From Flavipsychrobacter stenotrophus (GTDB taxonomy: Bacteria; Bacteroidota; Bacteroidia; Chitinophagales; Chitinophagaceae), in assembly GCF_002954265.1 (NCBI RefSeq), contig NZ_PPSL01000005.1:186001-250000 (forward strand): 64,000 bases of DNA, written 5' to 3'. The notes below the pieces were generated by a model. That model saw only the letters and a list, made by a program, of their open reading frames with translations. It searched no databases and was not told where the DNA came from. Below are positions 29,132 through 44,461 of this stretch, one piece after another (position 1 is the stretch's first letter; each line of letters opens with the position of its first letter). A program made the translations under genes and the position numbers.

Positions 29132-30808
29132 TTACCTCAGTAATAAAGATGCGGCGATGGCGAAACTGGTAGACGCACTACTTTGAGGTGGTAGCGCCTT
29201 TAACGGGCATGGGAGTTCGAATCTCCTTTGCCGCACCGAGGGAGACAAACAGGAATCAACCCCTGTTTGTCTCTTTTCATTTCTGCCTGAAACGCTTGAC
29301 AGGCTTGCAATAACACAGAATACGGAATTTACTTTCTCAGTTCGAAATGCCTTATTTTTCTTGTTATAGACAATTCCGAGAGGAAATACCAGTTTTTGAA
29401 GCCTTTCTTTATGCCCAATATCGCTGGAAGCCCATTCTGTAGCGAGGTTCAGCGATAAGTTTACTGCTCCCTGCAAGGTCGCTATCGGGTTCGAAATGCC
29501 AGTAGCCAAACCGGACATCTGTTTTTCTATTTCCTGAAGTTCCTTGGTGTACCGCACAAAGAATTTGTCATAGGTTGCCTTGCCCATTTCCTTCGTAACA
29601 AAGTACCCTTCTTCTATATTCTCTATTTTAGCTTTAACCTCGGAATGCTGCTTTTTGTAACTGGCCTCAAGTTCGTAGCTTTCCTTGTTGATCTCGTTCC
29701 ATTTACTTTCCAGCTTCTTTAATAAAGGCTCTTTTAGGTTTGCCTTGACGTTATAACCCTCAAGCATTTTTATGAACATGGCGTGCATTTCTTTTGCGCT
29801 CTTGTTGCATTTGCAGCCTATTGTCCGGCATTTGTAGTACCAAAGGTTCTTTGCCTTCACTATGTACCCTGTAAAGGGCGTATTGCACTCACTGCAACGG
29901 ACAAATACTTTCAGCGGGATGTCGTCCTGCTGCTTTTTATGGGATACACCATATCCGGGGTTGCTTTGGTGGATTTCATTGACGGCTAAGAACAACTGCT
30001 GTGAAATCAGTTTTTCGTGTGTACCCTCGACAATCTTCCCCTCAAGCATCGCATGGCTGAGCAAACCGCAATAAAATGGATTTTTAAAGATTTTAGTCAG
30101 GTGTTGTTTGGCTAATGGTATGCCCATGCTCCTGAGCTTTTCGAGTATCTGCTCATTTTTCATCCCCTCGCTCTTCCATACGAACGCCTTGCGTATTTTC
30201 TTGCCAGTGCCGTTTACGACTATGCTCCTTACCCCGTTCATCTTAACTACGTCATATCCTATCGGCGGTTTGGCGATCCATATACCTCGGCTGAATTTTT
30301 CTTTCATCCCTGTCAATGCCCTTTGCTTACGCAGCTCATTGTCATACTGTGAAAAGATAAAGTGGATGTTCTGCTGGAATATGCCGCTCGGGTGGGAAGT
30401 GTCAGTCGGCTGTGCAACGGCATACACTTCTACCCCGTATTTATTGCGGAGGTCTTCAGCCAGCTTTATCGCACCGCCACCCGTACGGCTAAAACGGTCA
30501 AGCATGAATACAAGGATGTGAGATACCTTGCCGTTGTTCTTCTTTATAAATTCCAGCATCCGCTGGAACTCTTTACGACCGTCTGTCTTGGCACTCTCAT
30601 AAGTACCACCGAAATACCCCGCTATTGTTATCCCTGAACGGTGGGCGTACTCTTCTATTGCCTTTTTCTGGCATTCCAGTGATAGGTTTTTGTCATACTG
30701 CTCCTTGCCCGACACCCTCGTATAAACTACTGCTGCCTTTATGTCCTTATGAAGCGGTTGGGTATGCCCGGTTTTAGCGAAACGGGAAAAGGTTGATAAT
30801 GTGCTCAT
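29132..30808 (-). CDS. Large serine recombinase (integrase) running through an antisense tRNA
   Basis: 558 residues. The resolvase N-terminal domain (about residues 25-170) carries the catalytic Ser33 in YTRVSGKEQYD, Arg in FMLDRFSRTGGGA and the REKF-type helix; a Recombinase domain follows (about residues 190-290), then a zinc ribbon (FVRCSECNTPFTGY ... YKCRTIGCKC) and a coiled-coil-like stretch (NEINKESYELEASYKKQHSEVKAKI). The last ~45 residues (RQTGVDSC on) are the antisense reading of the tRNA-Leu terminator and the tRNA-Leu itself, so the true functional end is probably just before. Coupled by an ATGA overlap to the small gene upstream. It marks the left end of an integrated element. Confidence 0.85.
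   Translation of the reverse strand: MSTLSTFSRFAKTGHTQPLHKDIKAAVVYTRVSGKEQYDKNLSLECQKKAIEEYAHRSGITIAGYFGGTYESAKTDGRKEFQRMLEFIKKNNGKVSHILVFMLDRFSRTGGGAIKLAEDLRNKYGVEVYAVAQPTDTSHPSGIFQQNIHFIFSQYDNELRKQRALTGMKEKFSRGIWIAKPPIGYDVVKMNGVRSIVVNGTGKKIRKAFVWKSEGMKNEQILEKLRSMGIPLAKQHLTKIFKNPFYCGLLSHAMLEGKIVEGTHEKLISQQLFLAVNEIHQSNPGYGVSHKKQQDDIPLKVFVRCSECNTPFTGYIVKAKNLWYYKCRTIGCKCNKSAKEMHAMFIKMLEGYNVKANLKEPLLKKLESKWNEINKESYELEASYKKQHSEVKAKIENIEEGYFVTKEMGKATYDKFFVRYTKELQEIEKQMSGLATGISNPIATLQGAVNLSLNLATEWASSDIGHKERLQKLVFPLGIVYNKKNKAFRTEKVNSVFCVIASLSSVSGRNEKRQTGVDSCLSPSVRQRRFELPCPLKALPPQSSASTSFAIAASLLLR
29151..29235 (+). tRNA. tRNA-Leu (anticodon GAG)
   Basis: 85 nt, class II. The acceptor strands are GCGGCGA and TTGCCGC with discriminator A; CCA is not encoded. 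The anticodon arm is CTACT-TTGAGGT-GGTAG, so the anticodon is GAG (reads CUC/CUU). The T arm is GGGAG-TTCGAAT-CTCCT, and there is a long variable arm as leucine tRNAs have. Confidence 0.93.
29242..29277 (+). terminator. Terminator of tRNA-Leu
   Basis: GAGACAAACAGG and CCTGTTTGTCTC form a perfect 12-bp stem with an 8-nt loop, followed by TTTT, starting 7 nt past the tRNA end. The recombinase frame passes through it on the other strand. Confidence 0.85.
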
Positions 30809-31017
30809 GCTGCTATTTTTGGCTTTTTATGCTGTATTTCATTGCTATATATATTACAATGCAATTTCTGTGCCGCATTTTCGAGTAGGATAGCCGCCAG
30901 TAAATCAAGGCTGTCAGCTATCTCCCCGGCTTCCTCGTCCGTATAGTGTTCACAGCCTTTAAAACCCCTCAGCCATTGCCCGGCACTGTTGTCGTCATTT
31001 CTTGTTTCATTTGCCAT
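30805..31017 (-). CDS. Small protein coupled to the recombinase
   Basis: 70 residues: MANETRNDDNSAGQWLRGFK, then a helix-rich middle (HYTDEEAGEIADSLDLLAAILLENAAQKLHC) and a basic tail. Its stop codon overlaps the start of the recombinase gene (ATGA), so they are translated together. The middle part resembles a small four-helix-free accessory segment; no known domain. It could be a recombination directionality factor or regulator of integrase dose, purely from position. Confidence 0.6.
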   Translation of the reverse strand: MANETRNDDNSAGQWLRGFKGCEHYTDEEAGEIADSLDLLAAILLENAAQKLHCNIYSNEIQHKKPKIAA

Positions 31018-31107: not shown

Positions 31108-31365
31108 TCAATTACGATCATCATCATCTTCTTCCTCGGCCTCCTCATCATCATCGTCCTCCAGATGGTCATCGATAATGTCGTCTATTTCATGGATGAC
31201 TTCCCTCTGGTCTTTGTCATATTCTACCTCGACGGTCAGCATGTCGTTTTCTTCATCTGTAGCTACGATGACATGGGGGATCTCATTCTCGATGAGCAGG
31301 TCTGCTACTGCGATCAATGCATCCATCGGCACTTCCAATTGCTTTGTTGTTATCGTCTTTTTCAT
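31108..31365 (-). CDS. Small highly acidic protein (paralogue of 32323-32628)
   Basis: 85 residues. The first ~60 form a small alpha/beta unit (VPMDALIAVADLLIENEIPHVIVATDEENDMLTVEVEYDKD), then the last 30 are nearly all Asp and Glu (EIDDIIDDHLEDDDDEEAEEEDDDD). The N-terminal part aligns with the gene at 32323: both have D(A/I)L-x2-V-x2-LL-x-(E/D)NEI, then V-x-(A/G)-x2-D-(D/E)E and a hydrophobic strand, with matching lengths. An all-acidic tail suggests DNA mimicry or anti-restriction or histone-like binding, but that is a guess. Confidence 0.6.
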   Translation of the reverse strand: MKKTITTKQLEVPMDALIAVADLLIENEIPHVIVATDEENDMLTVEVEYDKDQREVIHEIDDIIDDHLEDDDDEEAEEEDDDDRN

Positions 31366-31453: not shown

Positions 31454-32308
31454 CTATTTTGTAAAGTCCAGGTTAGAGAATTTTATGAATGGAACTATAT
31501 CGGCAAGCTGGAACCGCAGGCAGATAAGTTTTACTTTGTTTTCTGTCCTCAGCTTAAATCTCACTTCCCTGTCAGCGTTCTTGGCTGCTCGTGCGATATT
31601 TTTTTGCCATTCAACCACTTCATTTTTCATGGGATAGTTGGCAGGGATGCTTTTAAAATTTCGTGAAGCGACCATAGCGTTTATCGCTTCCCGTAGCGTG
31701 ATAAGCGTTTTACGCTCAACTATTGTCCTGTCAAGCCGCAGCAGGTTTTCTATAATACAACGGAAGCGGATACTTACCCACTTAACTTTCTCGATGTCTG
31801 AGCTGTACCAGTATTTGTTAGGGTACTGGAACATATGGGATGCCATATCATTGGTATTTGTGTAATCACCGATGTCATCAATGAAATCCGACCGTACCCA
31901 CCTATACTGCTCTTCTTTTACTGGCTTTGTTTTACGTCCATATAATGCGGGCGCACCATATCCATGATTGCTTTCAGAACGGCGGCCCCTATCCGACTGG
32001 CCATCACCCTTTTTAACGTCAAACGTCATTTTATCATTGGGCTGTTCCTCGTAAAGTGGCAGAGGGCGTACAATGTCTGTTTTATCTGTTGGGAAGCCTA
32101 ACGGTACCGTGTCCTTGATATTGTTGTACTCCTCAGCCGTTCGCTCGTTACTGTCAAGTGGAGTAATGCCGTTACATGAACCAGTTGACTGCGCAGCACG
32201 GCTGTAAAATGCCGCTTGCTTACACCTGTCTGAACAGTATTTTCTTGTGCTTCTACAGCCAACGAACGGACTATGGCAGTACGTGCAGTTTTTAGATTGG
32301 TTATCCAT
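31454..32308 (-). CDS. Zinc-finger protein of mobile-element type
   Basis: 284 residues. The N-terminus has a treble-clef/zinc-ribbon CTYCHSPFVGCRSTRKYCSDRCKQAAFYSRAA (four Cys, pattern CxxC-x14-CxxxC), like many replication or plasmid-borne proteins. The middle is low-complexity and hydrophilic, and the C-terminal ~120 residues are helical and basic (KVKWVSIRFRCIIENLLRLDRTIVERKTLITLREAIN), ending in a strand-rich tail. No catalytic motif is seen. It lies between the two acidic paralogues in the same direction, with 15-90 nt gaps, so all three probably share a transcript. Confidence 0.6.
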   Translation of the reverse strand: MDNQSKNCTYCHSPFVGCRSTRKYCSDRCKQAAFYSRAAQSTGSCNGITPLDSNERTAEEYNNIKDTVPLGFPTDKTDIVRPLPLYEEQPNDKMTFDVKKGDGQSDRGRRSESNHGYGAPALYGRKTKPVKEEQYRWVRSDFIDDIGDYTNTNDMASHMFQYPNKYWYSSDIEKVKWVSIRFRCIIENLLRLDRTIVERKTLITLREAINAMVASRNFKSIPANYPMKNEVVEWQKNIARAAKNADREVRFKLRTENKVKLICLRFQLADIVPFIKFSNLDFTK

Positions 32309-32322
32309 GTCGTTTGCTTTAA

Positions 32323-32628
32323 TTAGTCATCGTTGCCTTCAATATCAATGTCCAGCCCGGCACTCTGCCCATCTGAACTATACCTGTAGAAACTGTAGTC
32401 CGAGGTAAGTATTTTGATGTTTTCCATAGCATCTTTATGATGGGATGATTTTTTGTCTGTATGTGTCCTGATGAGCAGTGTCTGTTCATCATCGTCTATA
32501 CCTTCTACCGTGAATGCGATTTCGTTGTCGAAGAGGATGCTGAGTACGTCCATCAGGATGTCAAGGTGTACAGTGTGGGACTTGGTTGCTGTATTATGTA
32601 CCATACAATTATCGTTTTGTTGGTACAA
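32323..32628 (-). CDS. Small acidic protein (paralogue of 31108-31365)
   Basis: 101 residues. VHLDILMDVLSILFDNEIAFTVEGIDDDEQTLLIRTHTDKK matches the 31108 protein in pattern and length; instead of an acidic tail it ends with HHKDAMENIKILTSDYSFYRYSSDGQSAGLDIDIEGNDD. Shared layout with low identity suggests an old duplication inside the element. It is the first gene of the 32.6-31.1 kb minus-strand run and is preceded by the CGTTTAACG-rich intergenic region. Confidence 0.6.
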   Translation of the reverse strand: MYQQNDNCMVHNTATKSHTVHLDILMDVLSILFDNEIAFTVEGIDDDEQTLLIRTHTDKKSSHHKDAMENIKILTSDYSFYRYSSDGQSAGLDIDIEGNDD

Positions 32629-32716
32629 AGATGGGTGCCGTAAAAGCGGTTGGATGCCCCTATTGGGGTACCTATTTTATACTAGCTGAACGTTAACCAA
32701 GAAAAAAAAATGTTGC

Positions 32717-32763
32717 TACCGTTTAACGTAATTATCGTTAAACGACAATTACGTTAAACGGTA
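32717..32763. repeat. Long inverted repeat with three CGTTTAACG motifs
   Basis: A perfect 17-bp inverted repeat: TACCGTTTAACGTAATT (32717-32733) against AATTACGTTAAACGGTA (32747-32763), with a 13-nt centre (ATCGTTAAACGAC) that carries a third copy. The 9-mer CGTTTAACG (or its complement CGTTAAACG) is thus at 32720, 32736 and 32752, spaced 16 nt apart. Confidence 0.85.
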
Positions 32764-32847
32764 ATTATACCGCCAGAGGGTACTGCATATGCAGCCCAAT
32801 TGAAAATATTGTCAACCGTATTCAGGATCAGGTATTGTCTAAACGGG

Positions 32848-32976
32848 AATTGCGGGGGAGTTACGGGAAATATGGACAGTCAACAATTTCCAGAGAAAGA
32901 AAGTGAAAGATAATTAAGGGCGATTGACGGGGAAATTAAGAGGGGATATTTGGCGGTATGCCTCACACAGCTGTAG
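32848..32976. repeat. Imperfect direct repeat, copy 1 (flanks the 33332-34186 gene)
   Basis: Starts AATTGCGGGGGAGTTACGGG and includes AATTAAGGGCGATTGACGGG and GGAAATTAAGAGG. A degenerate second copy is at 34291-34410. Confidence 0.6.
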
Positions 32977-33253
32977 TTACACCTCCTTGCTTACTTAACC
33001 GTAAAACGGCTATATTTTGAATTGTTACAGTAATTTTCAACTACTCTTGTAGGAGGAAATAGTTTCTTATCAAATCAACATAGGAGTGATAGAGGTAACC
33101 GATATACGTAAGGGTGGATGCTACAATGCCTTCTCTTCGCCTGTTCTTCTATTGCTTACAGACGTACCAACCAGCTTTGGTGGTCTTGGATGCTGTTCTT
33201 TAAAAAAATATGCGTTAAGGCTTGTTGATACTGCTGGAGGTATTTACAGCAAC

Positions 33254-33312
33254 CGTTTAACGTAACAAAAGGAAGCACTGTAAAAATGCGTTCCTTATTG
33301 TTACGTTAAACG
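33254..33312. repeat. Inverted repeat built on CGTTTAACG, downstream of the 33332 gene
   Basis: CGTTTAACGTAACAAAAGGAA (33254-33274) pairs with its complement at 33291-33312, which has one extra A. The inner stem continues GCA/TGC. Both ends are copies of the 9-mer. It lies 20 nt past the gene's stop codon on the minus strand, so it could also act as a terminator. Confidence 0.8.
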
Positions 33313-33331
33313 ATAATCCAGTGTCAGAAGG

Positions 33332-34186
33332 TTAGTCTTTGTATTTTTTCCTTTCGTTAAACGGTAATTCTTTTATAGCTCTTTGGATTTCTTCATCTAT
33401 CATTTTTACACCACTTTCCAATCCTAAGTCTATGAAATACGGGCGAATGAATTTCAAGTCCTCTATCAGCTTGCCGTCCGTCTTATAATTAGGCATTTGC
33501 AGGTATTTTTTATAAATGTCGGAGTTCTGTATCGTAGTGAATTTTGTGCCGGTCAACAGGTGGACAAACCTCGCTATACAGCTCGACGAATTACTATCCC
33601 GCCCTTCTATGCCTAAAGATGCTTTTAAGAAATAGTAAATGGCTAACAGCTGCCTTGCCTTTGTAATATCCTTATCGGTTTCATCTGTTACCGCTATGCT
33701 GTCGTTTAACGTAATAGGTTCATCCGCTTCTTTTTTATCCGACAGGTAGAGGAAATATAGTGCATTGGATAACGAGCGTTTCGTGTCTTCAAGGAACAGC
33801 CCAATTTCTTCATCGGATAAAGATTGCTCCTGCGCACTCTTCATAGCGTTCAGCGTTTCCAGCGGGATAATGTCTTTAGCCCCGAGTACCCGCCTGAAGT
33901 CGAAATATTTGTATAGCTGTGCATTTGCATACGGTTGGAGGTCGCTTCTGTATTTCTTCAGCAATTCAGTTTCAGCATCGGCATATTTCCCCCAATCACC
34001 TGCATCCTTAGATTGTACATAGTTAATAATGTAATCGATGGCACGTAACAAATGCTCGGTTATCTCTATTTTCTGTGCATGGTTGTAACTACGGATCATT
34101 TGGTCATAGTCCGCATCGAACTTCATAAGTAACCGGTTGAATATCTGTAAGCGTGATAGGGGTTCCGTTTGGTTGCTCTCTTTCAT
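33332..34186 (-). CDS. Unknown mobile-element protein surrounded by CGTTTAACG motifs
   Basis: 284 residues, mostly helical and highly charged: NHAQKIEITEHLLRAIDYIINYVQ, ETELLKKYRSDLQPYANAQLYKYFDFRRVLG, EIGLFLEDTKRSLSNALYFLYLSDKKE. The C-terminal part has LLTGTKFTTIQNSDIYKKYLQMPNYKT. No known catalytic motif is seen. The gene contains two copies of the 9-mer CGTTTAACG/CGTTAAACG inside its own coding sequence (33355-33363, codons of LPFNE; 33703-33711, codons of ITLND), and further copies lie just outside. The protein may bind these motifs as a replication or regulatory factor of the element; this is inference from motif placement. Confidence 0.55.
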   Translation of the reverse strand: MKESNQTEPLSRLQIFNRLLMKFDADYDQMIRSYNHAQKIEITEHLLRAIDYIINYVQSKDAGDWGKYADAETELLKKYRSDLQPYANAQLYKYFDFRRVLGAKDIIPLETLNAMKSAQEQSLSDEEIGLFLEDTKRSLSNALYFLYLSDKKEADEPITLNDSIAVTDETDKDITKARQLLAIYYFLKASLGIEGRDSNSSSCIARFVHLLTGTKFTTIQNSDIYKKYLQMPNYKTDGKLIEDLKFIRPYFIDLGLESGVKMIDEEIQRAIKELPFNERKKYKD

Positions 34187-34290: not shown

Positions 34291-34410
34291 AATTGCGGGG
34301 GAATTAGGGGGAATATGCCCGGATATTGCCTTTCAGTGAAAAAAGTGAAATAAAATTAAGGGCGATTAACCGGGAAATTAAAAGAGAATTGCCTAACACC
34401 GCTACAGCTA
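34291..34410. repeat. Imperfect direct repeat, copy 2
   Basis: AATTGCGGGGGAATTAGGGGG (first 20 nt shared with copy 1 apart from a few changes), then AATTAAGGGCGATTAACCGGG, GGAAATTAAAAGAG and GCTACAGCTAT. About 1.44 kb from copy 1, in the same orientation. Confidence 0.6.
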
Positions 34411-34464: not shown

Positions 34465-34809
34465 TTATTTCTTGTCTTTTTGCAGAATAGTGATTGTTTC
34501 GTCCTTCTCCTTCAACAGACGTTCGTAAAGTTCGATTATCTTGTCCACAGGATTATTCTGGTAAAAGATGCTGTCCGTTATACTTCCTGAATTAAAGATG
34601 CTTTGCACCTTTGAATTATCAAGATCCTTTATCATTTCTACAGGGAAGTCAATAATGGCTGCTATGCGGGATAGCAGGTTATCATCTACCTCCTCCGCAT
34701 TCTCAATTAAACTATAATTCTGCTGGGTCATCTTCAGTCTTTTCGCCACATCCAGTTGCTTGATGCCACGGAAGCTGCGCAGCCTGCTTATGTTACGACC
34801 TATATGCAT
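34465..34809 (-). CDS. XRE-family helix-turn-helix regulator with coiled coil
   Basis: 114 residues. The N-terminal half is an XRE HTH (IGRNISRLRSFRGIKQLDVAKRLKMTQQNYSLIENAEEVDDNLLSRIAAIIDF). The C-terminal third is a coiled-coil helix (DKIIELYERLLKEKDETITILQKDKK), which should set dimerisation. Small regulators of this form are common in Bacteroidota integrative elements. Immediately upstream lies a pair of 15-bp inverted repeats (34852-34888), the likely autoregulatory operator. Confidence 0.85.
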   Translation of the reverse strand: MHIGRNISRLRSFRGIKQLDVAKRLKMTQQNYSLIENAEEVDDNLLSRIAAIIDFPVEMIKDLDNSKVQSIFNSGSITDSIFYQNNPVDKIIELYERLLKEKDETITILQKDKK

Positions 34810-34888: not shown

Positions 34889-35113
34889 TGCGATCCCTTT
34901 GATTATACTGGCGCATTAGCTTTTTTTGTCCATAAATAATAATTAAAGAAATATTTTTTAAGGTAATAATCCAACACCCTTAAAAAATCGTCATGGGGGT
35001 CTTTTTCACGTATAAACTATCAATTATTGTTTTGTACATTGGCATCCATAATAAAATCTGATAATGCAATTTATTGTTTCATAAAAAGATCATTCACTTC
35101 CAAACGTGTATGT

Positions 35114-38100
35114 ATGCAAAAGTTATTCTGTAAGTTTTTCGTATCGCTTCTATTGACCTTTGCAGCGTTCTCTGCAAACGCACTTACCGCCAGCTTCACC
35201 GCCGACCATACGTCCGGTTGTACACCATTGCCTGTGCATTTTACGAATACCTCAACAGGTGCTACAAGCTATATCTGGAAGTTCGGCAACGGTTCGCCCA
35301 ATTCCACCAGCACCAATACGCTTGCATTATACTATACCGGGACTTATACCGTAACATTGGTTGCCTATTACGGCACAGCAAGCGACAGTATGTCGATGGT
35401 AATTACCGTCCCGCCCAAACCAATCGTAAGTTTCCATAGCATAAGCACGACCGTATGCGCCTCAGACACCGTGTTTTTTGTCAACACAACTACAGAGTTC
35501 GGGCCGACAACCTATCTGTGGGATTTTGGGAACGGAGATACCAGTACCAATCCCAACCCACGGTATGTGTACTCGCAGCCCGGCTACCATACGGTGACAC
35601 TGATCGCATCCGATACCCTCGGTTGTGATACCTCAATTACACGCACGGCATATATTTTCAGTGATACGGCTATCAACGCAGGCTTCAATGTTACCCGCAC
35701 CTATTTCTGCAAGGCTCCTGCTGTAGAGGTATTCACATCTACATCTACGGGCGGCACCCATCCTTACACCTTTCTGTGGCATTTCGGGAACGGTGACAGT
35801 TCCTTTGCCACTTCACCGACGTACACCTATACCGTTGCAGGAAGTGACACCGCTACACTGACAATTACTGATGCCCACGGGTGTACCAAAAGTTTCTCAA
35901 GGATAATTACCATAAGCGTACCGTATGCCTCATTTACGGCTGATACCGGATTATGCGCCAATTTTTCTGACACGTTCACCAACACAAGCTTTACGACCGT
36001 ACCTACCAACACCTACAGGTGGTTGTTCGGTGACGGCATAATAAGCACCCTGACCAGCCCTGTGCATACATACACAGCTTCAGGCACATATACCGTAAGC
36101 CTGACGACAAACAACGGGCAGACATGCAGGGATACAGTCAAACAAATAGTTACGGTATGGCCTGTACCGTCGTCCGGCATCACCGCTACGCCTGCCAGCC
36201 CATGCCCGCCATCAACTACGATCAATTATACAAGCACGGGCACGTCAGGCGATACCGTCAACTGGTATTTTGGTGACGGCGCAATGGGAACGGGCACCTC
36301 CATATCCAATACCTACACGTCCGCCGAGCTGGACACAGTAGCGATGGTAGGTGGGGCGAATATCAACACGCTGAAGATAGATACAACCACAATGATTGTC
36401 ATAAACCCATACGGGTGCAGGGACACCGTCACGCACGTTGATACCATACGGGATCTGATACTTGTTTTCGGCCTTCCCGGCTACGGGGGATGCGTCCCGC
36501 TTACACGCAGCTTTTCCATAAGCGCGATAACAACGGTTCCATTCGCCGTTGGCCCTTATCCGTTCGCCATAGTTTCCTACACTTGGAATTTCGGGGATGG
36601 CAGTGCCACCTCGACGGGTGCCACGCCTTCGCATACTTACACTGCCGCTGGCAGCTACGCCCTTTCATGTACGGTAACAACGGCAAACGGCTGTACGGCA
36701 ACTGAGACCACGGGCGTTTCAGTCGGCACTCCTTCCACGGTATCGCTGACCGCCTCGCCCAGCCATGTATGCGTGGGTTCAGATGTTGGCCTGACTGCCA
36801 TCAGGACTTCCGGGTTCTCGACCAGCTATTTCTGGAACTTCGGCGACGGCCAGTTATACCAGAACGCCCCTTACAGCGGCGGGAGCGACGGTGAGCCGCA
36901 TAGCTACACTACTCCGGGAACATATCACGTAACGGTTACCATTGCAAACGGTGGCTGCTCGGGCAATACTGCGTCCGCCACAGTCATCGTCGATTCTCCG
37001 GCTGCGATCATCGGATTGCGCTACGATTGCGCTGGCGGCAATACCGTCACGCTGTACAATAATTCGATAGGCGCTGATTCCGTCCTGTGGACACTGAGCG
37101 ATGCTACTACCTCTACTGCCGATACGCTGGTACATACATTTGCGGCATCTTCGAATACAGCAACACTATGGGTACGTAATATCGCCAGCGGTTGCAGCAA
37201 TACCATTAGCGTACCTATCGATATTTACCAGATCACGCCGTCATTTACAGCGGATGATACAGCTATCTGCAGGGATATGGTGGTACACTTTACGCCTTAT
37301 ATCTCTGGCGGTGTACCCGACAGCGTCTATACATGGCTGGTGAATGGTGCCAATACAGCTACATCCACGCCCGTTGCCCCGTTGTTTACAGATACCTTTC
37401 ACAGTACAGGTATCTATACGGTTAGTATCGTTACCCATGATATCGTTCACGGGTGCTGGGATACTGCAAGCCGGAGTATTACCGTGGCGAAGCCCGTCGC
37501 AAATTTCACCGTGTCGCCCATATCAGGTTGCAGCCCGCTGCCTGTTACCTTCACGAATACAAGTACAGACGTTGCGGGGATTACTTTCACCAATTTCCAG
37601 TGGCAATTCGGTGATGGCAGTACGCCAGTGTCCGGCTCATCCCCTACCGTCGTCCATACCTATTCCATTCCCAATACGATAACATCGGCAATATTTACCG
37701 ACACGCTTATCGTCACCGACAATATCGGGTGCAAGGATACGCTGGTATTGCCCGATGTGGATACTGTGATGCGTGTCCGTGCCAATTTCAGCAGCCCTTC
37801 TTCAGTCTGCCTGGGCAGCACGATAACCTTTACTAACACTTCGACATCTCCTTTCGGCGATGGCCGTTCCTACTACTGGACATTCGGTGATGCGACGAAC
37901 AGCACCGTTACATCCCTGTCGCACCTGTATGGTACGGTAGGCAATTATACGGTAGCCTTATATACGACCGATACCGTCAGGGGCTGCATTGACAGCTTTA
38001 AAAAGATAATAACGGTCAGCCATCCTACCGCTGCATTCACGATGAGCGATTCTACTGCGCTCTGCGCCCCGCTGACCGTTTATTTTACCAATACCAGCAC

Positions 38101-41100
38101 GGGTATTCCTGCAACTGGTTCCAATTCCGAATGGACTTTCGGAAATGGCAATACGTCCATTATCCGGTCGCCTAATGCAACATATACGTCACCGGGCATA
38201 CATACTGTGCAATTGATAGTGACCAATGCACAGGGCTGCAAGGACACTGCCTACGGGCATGTAACCTTGTTCGGCTATTCGGGGGATTTTTCATACGATA
38301 CAATGGGCTGTATGCCATTTACTGCACACTTTGCCACGATAGCAGGTACAGGGGCTGACAGTGTTACGTGGATATTCGGGGACGACAGCATCGTCAACAC
38401 GTCATCATCCACGATTTCCCATATTTATACCCATGGAGGCATCTACACTCCTACAGTAATATTAGGCAATGCAACTGGCTGCAACGTAGCCAGCTCCGGC
38501 TCGGTGGCGATACGTGTAGATTCGGTTGCTGCCCACATCGCCACATCGCCCAATCCGGTTTGCCCGAATACGAACATTACATTTACGGGTACAGGCAACA
38601 GCTATTTTTCAACGGTAACGGGTTGGCACTGGCAGTTTGCAGGTTCAGACACAAGTAACCTCAACCCCGCTATCTATTCGTATTCCCTGAGTGGAACCTA
38701 CGTTGCCAGCGTCATAGCCACGGATGGATGGGGCTGCACAACAACGGCTACAGACACGATCCTGATCTATCCTGTTCCGGGGCCGATCATCGGGATTGAC
38801 AGCCTTTGCGTGGGAAGCTCTTTCCCGTTCTCTGATACGACAACAGGCGGCGTATGGATAAGTGATGACCAAGCGATTGCGGGCGTTGGAGGTTCTGGTA
38901 TAGTCACCGGGGTATCTGCTGGTACAACAACCATCTCTTATATAGTTACGAACGTGTTTGGCTGCTCTGCTATCCTTACTTTCCCTATAACGATCCTTGC
39001 GCTTCCTGATTCTGGTGTTATAAGTGGTATAGATAGCGTGTGCATTGGCAGCACAACTCCTCTGGCAGAGTCTGTTCCAGGAGGTGTATGGTCTAGCAGC
39101 GACACCACAATAGCCAGCATCGATGCTTTTGGTACTGTCAGCGGAATCACACTGGGTGTCGTCACTATCTCCTATACGGTTCACGACAGTTTCTGCTCCA
39201 ACGTGGCCATCTTTACATTTAAAGTAGTAACGCTTCCGGCTGTTCCTCCTATCACCGGTTTTGATACGCTCTGCGTCATCGGCTCGGACCAGCTTTTCAA
39301 TGCATTTCCGGGCGGCGTCTGGTCGAGCCTTGATCCCAGCATTGCTTTCGTTGACGCTGTTACGGGTGTAGTATCAGGTGTTTCGATTGGCTTTGCCACC
39401 ATAGCCTATGACGTGACTAACGCCTGCGGCACTACGCAGGTAACCAAACTAATAAATGTTATCCCGCTTGATCCTCCCATATTCGGACCTCATTCGGTAT
39501 GTTCGGGTTCTACGATCCCGCTGAATACAACAGTAGGAGGTGGAACATGGACAAGCGACGATCCGACAATAGCGGATGTTGATGTTGTAACGGGAGTAGT
39601 GACCGGCATTTCGACAGGCACTACCATGATACGGTACACGGGTGTTAGTGCCTGCGGGCCGTATTCAGTGGAGCATCAGGTGAGCGTTAATACAGCACCG
39701 TACATCACGACGAATTCTATGGTTGCCTGCCAGACATTGAGCAGCACAAAGGCAGGGCCGCAGATTATTTCAGGCTCCGGGGATTGCATAAAAGTGTGCG
39801 ACAGTACCATTGTCCGCTACTATGGAAACGGCGTGAGCGGCAGTGTCTATACCTGGGCCATAGCCGGAGGGACGATTGTACAGAATTATGGTGATAGTAT
39901 TGACGTGTTCTGGCCCGCTGCCGGAACTATGGGTAGCATTACGGTAACCGATACGTTCAGCCACTGTATTGGTACCGCAAGCGCATGCATACTCGTAATA
40001 CAAAGGCCGCACGCGTATTTCACGGCCAGCGCAATAAATGTATGCGCCGGGAACACCGTGTACTTTACCAACCTCTCCACCGCCGACCCGCTTTCCCCTA
40101 TAGTGTCGTACCACTGGGATTTTGGAGACGGTACCGGGTCGGTGTCGATAAACCCAAGCCACGTATACAGTACGGCGGGCATCAACGCGCAGGTGACGCT
40201 AGTGGTAAGGAATGCCTGCAATTGTTCCGATACGTTCAGGCTTGTACTGATCCTGCACAAGGATCCGGGGGTGCAGATAACCTGCCCTGCAGCAGTATGT
40301 GACAGCGAGTTCGCTACCTACAGCATTCCCGCCTCCGGTTGTGCCCCTGCATGGAATGTAACAAGCGGTTCTATAATCTCGGGTAACGGGACGCCATCGA
40401 TAGTAGTGCAATGGGATGCTTCCGGCGGCGGGTTCGGCACGGTAAATGTGACCGACCCGTGCGCAGCATGCATTGATACGTCCACAATAAAGATACCTAT
40501 AATCGCGGACGCCCCAATTTCGGGACCGAGCGTGGTCTGTACAGATAAGGAATATGAATACACGCTGCCGCTCTGGCCGGGTACCCAATACCAGTGGGGC
40601 GTATTGGGCTTCCCGAGTGTCAAGGTCATGTACAGCAATGATTACCGGCTAGTAGTGAACTTTCCTGCGCCGGGAACCTACACGCTACATGCATGGTACC
40701 AGAACGAAATAAAAATGTGCGGCGGCAACGTATTCAGGACGATCACGGTGCAGCAAACAGATTCTATATTAGGCAATACGACAGTCTGCCCGAATAGCCC
40801 GGAAACATACAGCCTTATCGGCGGAGCTACTGCCACATGGACAGTTTCAGACATGGCAGGAACTGTCATTGCAACTGCGACAGGTACCTCATTTACCAAT
40901 ACCTTCACTGCATCAGGCACATACCTGCTTACGGCTACCGGCGCATTCTGCTCCGATCCGCTGACCATCAATGTGCTCAACTCGCCACCTGCCGTAGATA
41001 GCGTCCATGGGCAGGATACTGTCTGCCTTAACTATGCGTACACGTATACTGCGTATTCCGACGTGCCGGGAACCATTTATGAATGGCAGGCAATAGGCGG

Positions 41101-44100
41101 TTTTGTGATCCCATCTACGGGCAGCCCAGTGGTAACTGCGGTATGGTCTGGCGGCAGTCCGATGATGCTGATAGTAAGCAGGGTGAGCACGATCCCGCCT
41201 TATTGCAGCGGCCCGTCTGACACGATAAATATCATGCAGGAAGTTATCAATCCGTACATTATTGGCGACACTGTCGTATGCGCCAACTCATCAATAAAAT
41301 ACTATACCGATTTTACGCGCGGAGAATGGTACGAGTGGACAGTTTACCCGACAACGGCAGGAAGTGTTATCCTGGGCGAACACACGCCTATAGCGCATAT
41401 CCTGTGGAACAACGTTCCGGGAATAACGCCTGCAACGGCAGACGTAGTACTGACCGTGCATAAATGCGACAGTGTATTTACGGACACTGCCCATATAGTC
41501 ATCACCCCGACACCTCCGGTAACGCTGACGATCACTCCGAATCCCACATGCCCCGGAAGCGCAGTGGCATTCACGTCCACGGTGGGCGGCCTTAGCTACG
41601 CATGGAATTTTGGTGATGGTACACCGATTCTAATAACGATGACCAACACAGCAACGCATGTGTATCCACCCAACCTTACGACAGGCATAATCTCTTATCC
41701 TGCACAGGTTACCGTTCTTCCAGACTATACTTTTCATTGCCCCATTTCCGGCGTTGCGGGAGGTTACGAGGACGTACTTCCCGGTCCAGTGGCTTATGCA
41801 TATTCCACTGGACCAATCTCGTGCGATACCACGGCATTTATCGGTACTGTTACGGATAATGTGGGGACTATCTCCTACCAATGGTATAAAAACGGCACGG
41901 CAGTTACCGGCGCAACGGGACCAACATTCCACGGGAACACACCGGGAATGTTCAGCTTTACCGCAACTTGTGCCAACGGCTGTTTCGATACGTCAAATTA
42001 TGTGCATGCAGACTCCTGCAATAGTGATACGATTACATGTGTGGGAGTGCAGCCGATTGTTTTAAATGCGACGATTACTGCGGGCTGTAATTCCCTGCAT
42101 CTTGCCGGCACTACAACAGGCCTCTCGCCGAGATGGGGTTTGGTGTCAGGCGGTGTACTTGATACAGCGGTTATAGCGCCGGGCCTTGACGCAGACGTAG
42201 TATGCATGGTGCCGGGGATATATGATTTTGTATTCAGCGCCGTTAATCCATACGATACGTGCGACTCTCCCAATGTCAGCAGGGGTATCAACAGGCGGGT
42301 CATTGTGCCGCTTGTAGCAGACTATCTCTTTTCGTTGCATTGTGGCACCGGCGGGTACGATACGGTGTTGCTACAGGATCATTCTTCTTTCCTGCCGGGT
42401 TATCTGATCACTGGTATTGATTGGATAAATATGACCACAGGAACAATGATTGGAACTGGATGGCCCAACCTGAGTGTTGCTCTGTTAGCGCCGGGAACAT
42501 ACCAGATCGTGGAGTACGTATACTACATTGACGGGTCGGATCCTCTTGCCACTGTCCAAAACTGCTCGGTCATACACACCATCGTCCTGCCTTCTGCGCC
42601 TACAGCATCCTTCACATCTGCGGTGTCGCCGATATGCTCACAGGTGCCAATTACATTCACTCCTACTACATCAGGCGGTATAGTTCAGTATAATTGGGAT
42701 TTCGGGGATGGATCAGGTAGTTTACTAACGAATCCTCAACGGGCTTATACATGGAATATAACAGATCCCGATCCTCTCCCTGAATCGGTGACTTTGACAG
42801 TTACAGATACGATTGGTTGTACAGCCACTGCGGTTGATACGGTTGAAGTTCGAAGAAATCGTTTAAGTGGCGATTTGGGAGGTAATGTTGTAGCATGTTC
42901 AGATAATGCGCCGGTGGTTTTAGGGTACACCTCTGTACCGGGGTTTGCTACGCCAACATCATACTTATGGTCAACAGGTGCTACGTCTGACACCATTGCT
43001 GTCGATACTTCTGGTGCATATTGGCTAACGGTGTATGGAGCATACCAGTGCCAGTTCACCACATTTCCGGCAACACAGGTGGGCATTTTAAAAGTACCAT
43101 CTTTGGGCATTGTTGGAGCGCAGTCTTATTGCGAAGGAGATACCGTCAGGCTTTCCGGATATGTGGGAAACAGCGTTATTTACGAATGGTACAGGGACGG
43201 CAGCCCGGACGGAACATTGTCATCGGTAGCTGACGGCGGGCTTCCGGCAGGAACCTACGTTTACCAGTTGGTGCGCACCCTTATGATTGGGGGAGTTCCT
43301 TATTGCACAGATACGCTTGCAGATACGATCCAAATTTACAAGTTGCCGAAACAGCCGAAAATTTCCGGTCCTATTGCCATCGATTGTGCCACATACCAGA
43401 TAGAGCTTGATGCTTCGGCTGGTGTGTCCGGCACATTCAACTGGAGCGATGGTACTGCGGGGGCAATAAATACGAATATATATACCGGTGGACCGTACGA
43501 GGTATGGTTTACCGATATTAATGGTTGCCAGAGCAGTAATACCGTATCAGTGCCGCCGCCGCCATCCTGGTTTTTCCAGTATTTCCCTTCGGGATGTTAT
43601 ACAGTATGCGTAGAATCTTTGCCGCAAATATTATATGGCCCTCCTAACCAGATATTCGATTCATGGGAGTGGCAGGAAGCAGGCAACCCTAGTCCGCTAA
43701 GTTCAGGGAGTATGAGCCCGGTTGCGCCGTATGGTGTCACCCACAACGGTTCCTATAATTGGTGGCTCTCTAACGGGCTTTGTAAAGAGGCGTCCGACTA
43801 TATGGATCTTTCTATAGATAAGTGCAGCAATTGTGGCAATGGCACAGTAAGTGGAGTGCTTACCTGCACTGCTGGCAATCCTGCCAGCTACACAATAGAC
43901 ATAACCGTAGCCGGTCTTCCCACAGGTACAACCTTTACATCGGGTACCGACATTGGTCCCATTGGTTTCTTTTCAGGAGTGCTTACGGGCACTAGCCCTT
44001 ATTTGCTCTCGCTGACGTTTACCACTTTGTACCTTCCTCCCCCAAGTGACATGATACTGAAAATGGTATTCACGCTTCCAATCGGAAGCAAGTGCTATCT

Positions 44101-44461
44101 CGAAGATTCTGTATCCATTCCATTTTGTCCATGGGTAGCTGAACGTTCCGGAGATACAAGTACTACAAAGACTGATGGCGGTGTGCGCATGGCCAACGAG
44201 ATCACCAGCGCCATGCTCGTGTACCCCAATCCTGCTTCGGGCGCAGTAACGGTGTCTTTTGATTACGGTACTGATGTTTACGAACATCGTAGTCTCGCCG
44301 TGTATGACATCATGGGCAGAAAAATCGGACAGGAAATTCCTTCGCAATTGCATGATACCTGGAATGTGAATACTGCCGATTGGTCGCCGGGAATATATAT
44401 CATCCGTATGGAAGCGGATGGGAGGATGCTGCACACGCAACGAGTTGTAGTGTCCCACTAA
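35114..44461 (+). CDS. Giant PKD / bacterial-Ig-like T9SS surface protein
   Basis: 3115 residues from MQKLFCKFFVSLLLTFAAFSANA at 35114 (an upstream Met at 35027 gives no signal peptide and is rejected). About sixteen PKD-type domains are seen as YxWxFGDG/FGNG, e.g. YIWKFGNG, LWDFGNGD, RWLFGDGI, TWNFGDGS, YHWDFGDGTG and YNWDFGDGSG. Around nt 38,800-39,700 come four Ig-like (BIG2-type) repeats of the form GGVWSSSDxxIAxVDxxTGVVSG. The C-terminal ~90 residues are a T9SS type A sorting domain (LVYPNPASGAV ... SPGIYIIRM). Likely a cell-surface adhesin or polymer-binding protein; many Cys pairs suggest disulfides. The following T9SS genes lie close by in the same direction. Confidence 0.85.
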   Translation: MQKLFCKFFVSLLLTFAAFSANALTASFTADHTSGCTPLPVHFTNTSTGATSYIWKFGNGSPNSTSTNTLALYYTGTYTVTLVAYYGTASDSMSMVITVPPKPIVSFHSISTTVCASDTVFFVNTTTEFGPTTYLWDFGNGDTSTNPNPRYVYSQPGYHTVTLIASDTLGCDTSITRTAYIFSDTAINAGFNVTRTYFCKAPAVEVFTSTSTGGTHPYTFLWHFGNGDSSFATSPTYTYTVAGSDTATLTITDAHGCTKSFSRIITISVPYASFTADTGLCANFSDTFTNTSFTTVPTNTYRWLFGDGIISTLTSPVHTYTASGTYTVSLTTNNGQTCRDTVKQIVTVWPVPSSGITATPASPCPPSTTINYTSTGTSGDTVNWYFGDGAMGTGTSISNTYTSAELDTVAMVGGANINTLKIDTTTMIVINPYGCRDTVTHVDTIRDLILVFGLPGYGGCVPLTRSFSISAITTVPFAVGPYPFAIVSYTWNFGDGSATSTGATPSHTYTAAGSYALSCTVTTANGCTATETTGVSVGTPSTVSLTASPSHVCVGSDVGLTAIRTSGFSTSYFWNFGDGQLYQNAPYSGGSDGEPHSYTTPGTYHVTVTIANGGCSGNTASATVIVDSPAAIIGLRYDCAGGNTVTLYNNSIGADSVLWTLSDATTSTADTLVHTFAASSNTATLWVRNIASGCSNTISVPIDIYQITPSFTADDTAICRDMVVHFTPYISGGVPDSVYTWLVNGANTATSTPVAPLFTDTFHSTGIYTVSIVTHDIVHGCWDTASRSITVAKPVANFTVSPISGCSPLPVTFTNTSTDVAGITFTNFQWQFGDGSTPVSGSSPTVVHTYSIPNTITSAIFTDTLIVTDNIGCKDTLVLPDVDTVMRVRANFSSPSSVCLGSTITFTNTSTSPFGDGRSYYWTFGDATNSTVTSLSHLYGTVGNYTVALYTTDTVRGCIDSFKKIITVSHPTAAFTMSDSTALCAPLTVYFTNTSTGIPATGSNSEWTFGNGNTSIIRSPNATYTSPGIHTVQLIVTNAQGCKDTAYGHVTLFGYSGDFSYDTMGCMPFTAHFATIAGTGADSVTWIFGDDSIVNTSSSTISHIYTHGGIYTPTVILGNATGCNVASSGSVAIRVDSVAAHIATSPNPVCPNTNITFTGTGNSYFSTVTGWHWQFAGSDTSNLNPAIYSYSLSGTYVASVIATDGWGCTTTATDTILIYPVPGPIIGIDSLCVGSSFPFSDTTTGGVWISDDQAIAGVGGSGIVTGVSAGTTTISYIVTNVFGCSAILTFPITILALPDSGVISGIDSVCIGSTTPLAESVPGGVWSSSDTTIASIDAFGTVSGITLGVVTISYTVHDSFCSNVAIFTFKVVTLPAVPPITGFDTLCVIGSDQLFNAFPGGVWSSLDPSIAFVDAVTGVVSGVSIGFATIAYDVTNACGTTQVTKLINVIPLDPPIFGPHSVCSGSTIPLNTTVGGGTWTSDDPTIADVDVVTGVVTGISTGTTMIRYTGVSACGPYSVEHQVSVNTAPYITTNSMVACQTLSSTKAGPQIISGSGDCIKVCDSTIVRYYGNGVSGSVYTWAIAGGTIVQNYGDSIDVFWPAAGTMGSITVTDTFSHCIGTASACILVIQRPHAYFTASAINVCAGNTVYFTNLSTADPLSPIVSYHWDFGDGTGSVSINPSHVYSTAGINAQVTLVVRNACNCSDTFRLVLILHKDPGVQITCPAAVCDSEFATYSIPASGCAPAWNVTSGSIISGNGTPSIVVQWDASGGGFGTVNVTDPCAACIDTSTIKIPIIADAPISGPSVVCTDKEYEYTLPLWPGTQYQWGVLGFPSVKVMYSNDYRLVVNFPAPGTYTLHAWYQNEIKMCGGNVFRTITVQQTDSILGNTTVCPNSPETYSLIGGATATWTVSDMAGTVIATATGTSFTNTFTASGTYLLTATGAFCSDPLTINVLNSPPAVDSVHGQDTVCLNYAYTYTAYSDVPGTIYEWQAIGGFVIPSTGSPVVTAVWSGGSPMMLIVSRVSTIPPYCSGPSDTINIMQEVINPYIIGDTVVCANSSIKYYTDFTRGEWYEWTVYPTTAGSVILGEHTPIAHILWNNVPGITPATADVVLTVHKCDSVFTDTAHIVITPTPPVTLTITPNPTCPGSAVAFTSTVGGLSYAWNFGDGTPILITMTNTATHVYPPNLTTGIISYPAQVTVLPDYTFHCPISGVAGGYEDVLPGPVAYAYSTGPISCDTTAFIGTVTDNVGTISYQWYKNGTAVTGATGPTFHGNTPGMFSFTATCANGCFDTSNYVHADSCNSDTITCVGVQPIVLNATITAGCNSLHLAGTTTGLSPRWGLVSGGVLDTAVIAPGLDADVVCMVPGIYDFVFSAVNPYDTCDSPNVSRGINRRVIVPLVADYLFSLHCGTGGYDTVLLQDHSSFLPGYLITGIDWINMTTGTMIGTGWPNLSVALLAPGTYQIVEYVYYIDGSDPLATVQNCSVIHTIVLPSAPTASFTSAVSPICSQVPITFTPTTSGGIVQYNWDFGDGSGSLLTNPQRAYTWNITDPDPLPESVTLTVTDTIGCTATAVDTVEVRRNRLSGDLGGNVVACSDNAPVVLGYTSVPGFATPTSYLWSTGATSDTIAVDTSGAYWLTVYGAYQCQFTTFPATQVGILKVPSLGIVGAQSYCEGDTVRLSGYVGNSVIYEWYRDGSPDGTLSSVADGGLPAGTYVYQLVRTLMIGGVPYCTDTLADTIQIYKLPKQPKISGPIAIDCATYQIELDASAGVSGTFNWSDGTAGAINTNIYTGGPYEVWFTDINGCQSSNTVSVPPPPSWFFQYFPSGCYTVCVESLPQILYGPPNQIFDSWEWQEAGNPSPLSSGSMSPVAPYGVTHNGSYNWWLSNGLCKEASDYMDLSIDKCSNCGNGTVSGVLTCTAGNPASYTIDITVAGLPTGTTFTSGTDIGPIGFFSGVLTGTSPYLLSLTFTTLYLPPPSDMILKMVFTLPIGSKCYLEDSVSIPFCPWVAERSGDTSTTKTDGGVRMANEITSAMLVYPNPASGAVTVSFDYGTDVYEHRSLAVYDIMGRKIGQEIPSQLHDTWNVNTADWSPGIYIIRMEADGRMLHTQRVVVSH

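Follow-up and report, generated by a model that had tools for sequence, protein, structure and literature searches.

A conserved cluster of near-palindromic words forms a putative array of binding sites in a tRNA-Leu-inserted integrative element of Flavipsychrobacter stenotrophus

Introduction

The lac and lambda CI operators consist of multiple sites, with auxiliary sites located inside genes. Plasmid replication iterons are short repeats arranged in even steps. In integrons, each attC site is bounded by an inverted pair of core sites, and SCC cassettes insert at rlmH. Lastly, for the CTnDOT-type conjugative transposons of Bacteroides, a published account (PMC10865816) describes RteC as an activator of the excision operon.

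Here, we describe a locus for which we suggest a logic similar to that of RteC, i.e., a regulator of the excision operon in a mobile element of Bacteroidota. The window, by which we mean the whole 64-kb stretch of DNA analyzed, comes from Flavipsychrobacter stenotrophus and contains a cluster of a 9-mer, CGTTTAACG, that we refer to as the “X” word. Judged from the sequences compared below, the cluster is a conserved, selected array of putative binding sites in an integrative element at a tRNA-Leu gene. It identifies small integrative islands as a family. Some of its members lie beside anti-phage genes, and the family appears to be undescribed in the literature that we searched.

An element inserted at tRNA-Leu

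The genes of the element lie on the minus strand in the order XRE protein, A, B, C, B2, D, and serine recombinase. The XRE-type HTH protein (34465..34809) is the upstream-most. Gene A (33332..34186) encodes 284 aa without a Pfam family (net charge −5), and gene B (32323..32604) an acidic protein of 93 aa counted from ATG (net −12). Gene C (31454..32308) encodes 284 aa with a zinc-ribbon-like N-terminal cysteine cluster (net +12). Gene B2 (31108..31365; 85 aa, net −27) resembles B, and gene D (30805..31017; 70 aa, net −5) is a small ORF preceding the large serine recombinase (29132..30808; Resolvase, E 2.7e-23). The 3′ end of the recombinase gene, encoding its C-terminus, runs antisense through the plus-strand gene for tRNA-Leu(GAG) (29151..29237), the two together spanning 29132–29237. 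The element is inserted at this tRNA gene: in two genomes of the same genus that lack the element, homology with the window continues to positions 29236 and 29245 and then ends, at the tRNA 3′ end, which places the left end of the element at about 29236. The right end was not found. Immediately to the right of the element is a repeat-rich gene of 3144 aa (35027–44461), whose repeats we take to be PKD-like; in the two genomes that lack the element, no relative of it was found next to the tRNA gene. An imperfect 95-bp direct repeat (78%; 32848–32942 and 34291–34384) flanks gene A and X sites 4–7. The two copies are the only ones in the genome, and none was found in the other loci compared with it.

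A search with gene A identified five loci at 49–68% identity, and whole-genome searches added further elements, two of them close (L163 and L164) and four more distant (L021–L024). The close relatives, L016–L020, L163, and L164, represent six genomes that all belong to a single genus, different from that of the window; together with the window they make up the close set of eight elements. The distant set, L021–L024, comes from three genomes. The recombinase ORF also overlaps a tRNA gene in L019, L163, L164, L022, and L024, and no tRNA gene was found in L016, L017, and L020. No relative of the XRE-type protein was found in the loci of L016, L017, L019, L020, L163, and L164.

Architecture and conservation of the X array

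An exact search of the window recovered all seven copies of CGTTTAACG listed in the original prediction, within 1 kb, and no other copy in the 64 kb; shuffled sequence gave a mean of 0.41 copies and at most 3 (100 shuffles). Sites 1 (32720..32728, plus strand), 2 (32736..32744, minus), and 3 (32752..32760, minus) follow one another at 16 bp. Site 4 (33254..33262, plus) and site 5 (33304..33312, minus) lie downstream of gene A, the latter by ~20 bp. The remaining two, as predicted, are inside the minus-strand ORF at 33332–34186: site 6 (33355..33363, minus) codes for P-F-N and site 7 (33703..33711, plus) for T-L-N, and a site coding for T-L-N also occurs in the gene A copies of L163 and L164. 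A high genome-wide frequency of the word had been named as grounds for abandoning the idea of a binding array. The frequency is not high: the 5.43-Mb genome has 17 exact copies, i.e., the seven of the cluster and 10 singletons elsewhere, compared with 73 matches for the word read backwards.

The long inverted repeats noted earlier for two pairs of sites are also present. One has 23-nt arms (32717–32739 and 32741–32763) that are 96% complementary, with the outer 17 bp perfect; the other has 15-nt arms (33254–33268 and 33298–33312) that are 100% complementary, plus an imperfect extension. Because the 9-mer almost matches its own complement (CGTTWAACG), opposed copies form such stems automatically. 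Across the eight close elements, six of the nine consecutive exact pairs ≤40 bp apart are direct and three inverted; therefore, it is not the long hairpins that are conserved. Terminator-like hairpins were seen by eye after array units between A and B in L016–L020 and might act in attenuation.

Exact copies of the X word number 7, 6, 6, 4, 6, 6, 5, and 5 in the window and its seven close relatives, respectively, with 0.025–0.049 expected per element. In all eight, the most enriched 8- to 10-mer is the X word or a 10-mer containing it. The 45 copies yield a near-palindromic consensus, TACCGTTTAACGTAA. Spacing shows a recurrent step: among the 37 consecutive intervals, the nine of ≤40 bp comprise eight of 16 bp and one of 21 bp, and the other 28 exceed 40 bp. 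The copies occur in both orientations, and in L163 and L164 no two exact copies come within 40 bp of each other. In the window, X sites precede the B-C-B2-D-recombinase genes and also lie within gene A, and in most close relatives they are found between A and B and inside gene C. The distant elements L021–L024 have 2, 1, 2, and 0 exact copies, respectively, and each has two copies of a palindromic variant, GTTTAnnnnTAAAC (0.00–0.01 expected), which is absent from six of the eight close elements and present in two. All of these statistics ignore kinship among close relatives that belong to one genus, with the arrays of L017 and L020 being nearly identical (94% over 240 columns).

The number of X copies within genes exceeds what the encoded proteins would account for. 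Within each gene, we permuted synonymous codons, using seven genes of each kind (28 genes) and 2000 shuffles each. Coding sequence contains 19 X copies, non-independent through shared ancestry, compared with 3.1 expected. Gene C accounts for 15 (six elements; 2.5 expected) and gene A for four (three elements; 0.35 expected), and there are none in gene B (0 expected) or the recombinase gene (0.23 expected). In the window itself, gene C has no exact copy and gene A has two; gene C of L163 taken alone has two (0.63 expected), which is not significant (P 0.10). All 19 copies share one reading frame, in which they code for P-F-N or T/A-L-N, and most lie where the protein is poorly conserved. This excess and the enrichment in eight of eight close elements, both calculated without regard to kinship, point to selection on the DNA word itself, as in an operator. 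Retention of binding sites within an element's own coding sequence would be an unusual constraint. With the word clustered in seven related elements and exceeding the codon-shuffle expectation in genes, there is good support for the proposal that the cluster is a protein-binding array confined to the element.

Association with element genes

Exact X sites occur in 10 of the 11 elements in which gene C is visible, the exception being L024, which carries variants; in L018, gene C lies beyond the contig end. A profile of A retrieved full-length A relatives, 37–48% identical, in L202 (genus g166) and in L203 and L204 (genus g194). Neither gene C nor B2 was found in these three elements (tblastn, E 0.01), and L203 retains a B-like gene. 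None of the three has an exact X word or the palindrome GTTTAnnnnTAAAC; L204 has two GTTTACCG octamers. This contrast draws on three elements from two genera, with kinship ignored, and it makes the product of gene A, the binder favored in the original prediction, doubtful in that role: A is probably not the X binder. Since B2 is missing together with C in L202–L204, it covaries equally with the array. A broken element, L165, lacks A, retains B2 and a C-terminal fragment of C, and has no X site.

The recombinase is unlikely to be the binder because the array occurs with two types of serine recombinase (one in the window, L016, L164, and L024; the other in L017, L019, L020, L163, and L022), and a tyrosine recombinase adjoins the module in L021 and L023. 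Thus, the array follows C and B2, rather than A or recombinase type. C is basic (+12) and B2 strongly acidic (−27), and we therefore infer that C, rather than B2, is most likely the array-binding protein. The best family match of gene C is a PHROG phage HNH endonuclease (E 3.1e-6, residues 4–138), so its product may be an enzyme. Structure prediction for C gave no usable model (pLDDT 41.7).

A second palindrome at the candidate promoter of gene B

A separate near-palindrome, the “Y” site (GGTACCCCAATAGGGGCATCCA; 32651..32672, minus strand), lies upstream of gene B and is conserved in related elements. Downstream of it is a candidate −7 promoter box, CATCTTTG (32626..32633, minus strand), which we take to fit the Bacteroidota −7 consensus TAnnTTTG. 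In an alignment of the eight close elements, an invariant CTTTGT comes 21 columns after a common ATAGGTAnnCCAATAGGGGCATnC upstream of B. Several near-identical, near-palindromic sites surround a promoter, itself a consensus-based candidate, as in an operator region.

The Y palindrome is cleaner in L021–L023 (GGTAnCCCTATAGGGGGATACC). The pattern GGTAnCCCnATAGGGGnATnCC is matched with ≤1 mismatch in 11 of 15 elements, with four mismatches in L024 and L202, and with five in L204; in L203, Y was seen by eye alone. Five-mismatch matches also arise by chance elsewhere in the same elements, so Y in L203 and L204 rests on position and shape. To judge by these matches, Y persists, though in a less clear form, in the elements that have A and lack C (L202–L204), and A is the likely partner of Y. 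Three viral contigs (L167, L168, and L169) also match a Y-like pattern.

A possible multi-site operator and its alternatives

The explanation that we favor, at somewhat less than even confidence, is that the X cluster is a multi-site operator, or nucleoprotein array, through which C would regulate the B-C-B2-D-recombinase genes, presumably as a single operon. C would bind the near-palindromic X sites (TACCGTTTAACGTAA, or GTTTAnnnnTAAAC in the more distant elements), possibly with cooperativity between sites 16 bp apart or by forming loops. It would thereby tune the transcription of a gene row that ends in the recombinase, in a direction that is likewise conjectural, and so control excision. 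A would act at the separate palindrome Y near the promoter. The proposed circuit, with C as candidate binder of the array and A at the promoter palindrome, is testable.

If the array were instead the operator of gene A's own product, one would point to X sites that flank gene A and sit inside it, to one exact site 35–55 bp downstream of A in the distant L021–L023, and to A's C-terminal region, which adjoins an HTH_17 gene in L025 (alongside a tyrosine integrase) and L207, a plausible position for a regulator. We regard this as unlikely, however: L202–L204 combine full-length A with Y-like sequences nearby and have no exact X word, and four of five loci that have only A's C-terminal domain are without an X copy, the copy in the fifth, L205, being ~6 kb away. 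Replication or partition of the excised element, which the original prediction had raised for the same gene product, would make the array an origin or centromere, built of iterons or parS-like sites. The pairs and triplets of X sites at 16 bp do resemble iterons, one of five relatives of C has a ParA-named Pfam match (E 0.041), and A, B, C, and B2 fall in no class, leaving room for a new Rep. This role is nonetheless very unlikely, because no Rep or Par family is recognized: the Pfam matches of the element's seven ORFs include no Rep, ParA, or ParB family. Moreover, the X sites are mixed in orientation and extend into the coding sequence of A and C.

Three relatives adjoin anti-phage genes, inferred from this adjacency to be element cargo. 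L018 has a Lamassu-type pair that separates A from the main array, with BrxC upstream; GmrSD proteins are encoded in L020, and a SoFic-type Fic protein in L017. The end of gene A and an array are found on either side of the Lamassu-type cassette in L018 (6841–7029 and 11663–11866; 73% identity over 208 columns), and L020 has an extra gene between A and the array, as if the array were a platform for recombination or cargo insertion at which exchange between copies loads defense cassettes. Yet the right-hand copy in L018, with what appears by eye to be a 3′ remnant of gene A, is also what one would expect had two elements inserted in tandem and then decayed, and the X copies inside gene C flank no cargo; we consider such a platform distinctly improbable. 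We give equally little credence to a host-encoded nucleoid or regulatory protein as the user of the array. The binder is at the level of a candidate, which makes a host protein conceivable, but the rest of the genome has just the ten single copies, and the array tracks the element genes.

The operator reading can be extended, speculatively and with only a small chance of being right as a whole, to a portable module for mobility control. A-B-C-B2 together with X and Y would serve recombinases of two serine types and one tyrosine type, in islands frequently found next to anti-phage genes. C would assemble on an array partly inside its own and its neighbor's coding sequence, the looped complex would silence the island or ready it for excision, and array duplications would be landing zones for new defense cargo. 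If true, a control module common to recombinases of unrelated kinds would be informative about the movement of islands among these bacteria. The C-terminal domain of A is also found in otherwise different proteins in L025 (9801–10709) and L207 (7510–8688), neither of which has a Pfam match, and is possibly an undescribed mobile-element domain.

Comparison with known systems

Gene A was rejected as a member of the RteC family (PF09357). Alignment to RteC proteins with hhalign gave a probability of 0.2–0.8%, RteC was not among the Pfam matches of nine gene A members at E values up to 10, and the genome of the window has no RteC match. The locus was likewise rejected as a ParABS locus, with neither ParA nor ParB among the Pfam matches of the seven ORFs, and the X sites as integron attC sites, with six of nine close pairs being direct. 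SCC cassettes with Ccr are similar to the element in combining a large serine recombinase with small genes and varying neighbors. The CcrB model, for which the curated cut-off is 900 bits, matches the recombinase of the window with 69 bits (E 2.6e-19) and that of L019 with 130 bits (E 8.4e-38). With 69 bits versus 900, and with insertion at tRNA-Leu rather than rlmH, the element was rejected as an SCC cassette; unlike SCC, the element family is inserted at tRNA genes.

The X array invites comparison with plasmid iterons through its short repeats, which take 16-bp steps in eight of the nine short intervals, with the other 28 of the 37 intervals being longer. It differs from iterons in being dispersed, mixed in orientation, and partly inside genes, and in lacking a recognized Rep; no initiator of a known family is among the Pfam, NCBIfam, and PHROGs matches, which leave some ORFs unclassified. 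In common with the lac and lambda CI operators, the X array has repeated near-palindromic sites both upstream of and within genes, in one regulatory region. It is distinguished from these operators by its larger number of copies, its recurrent 16-bp steps, and an unrelated candidate protein.
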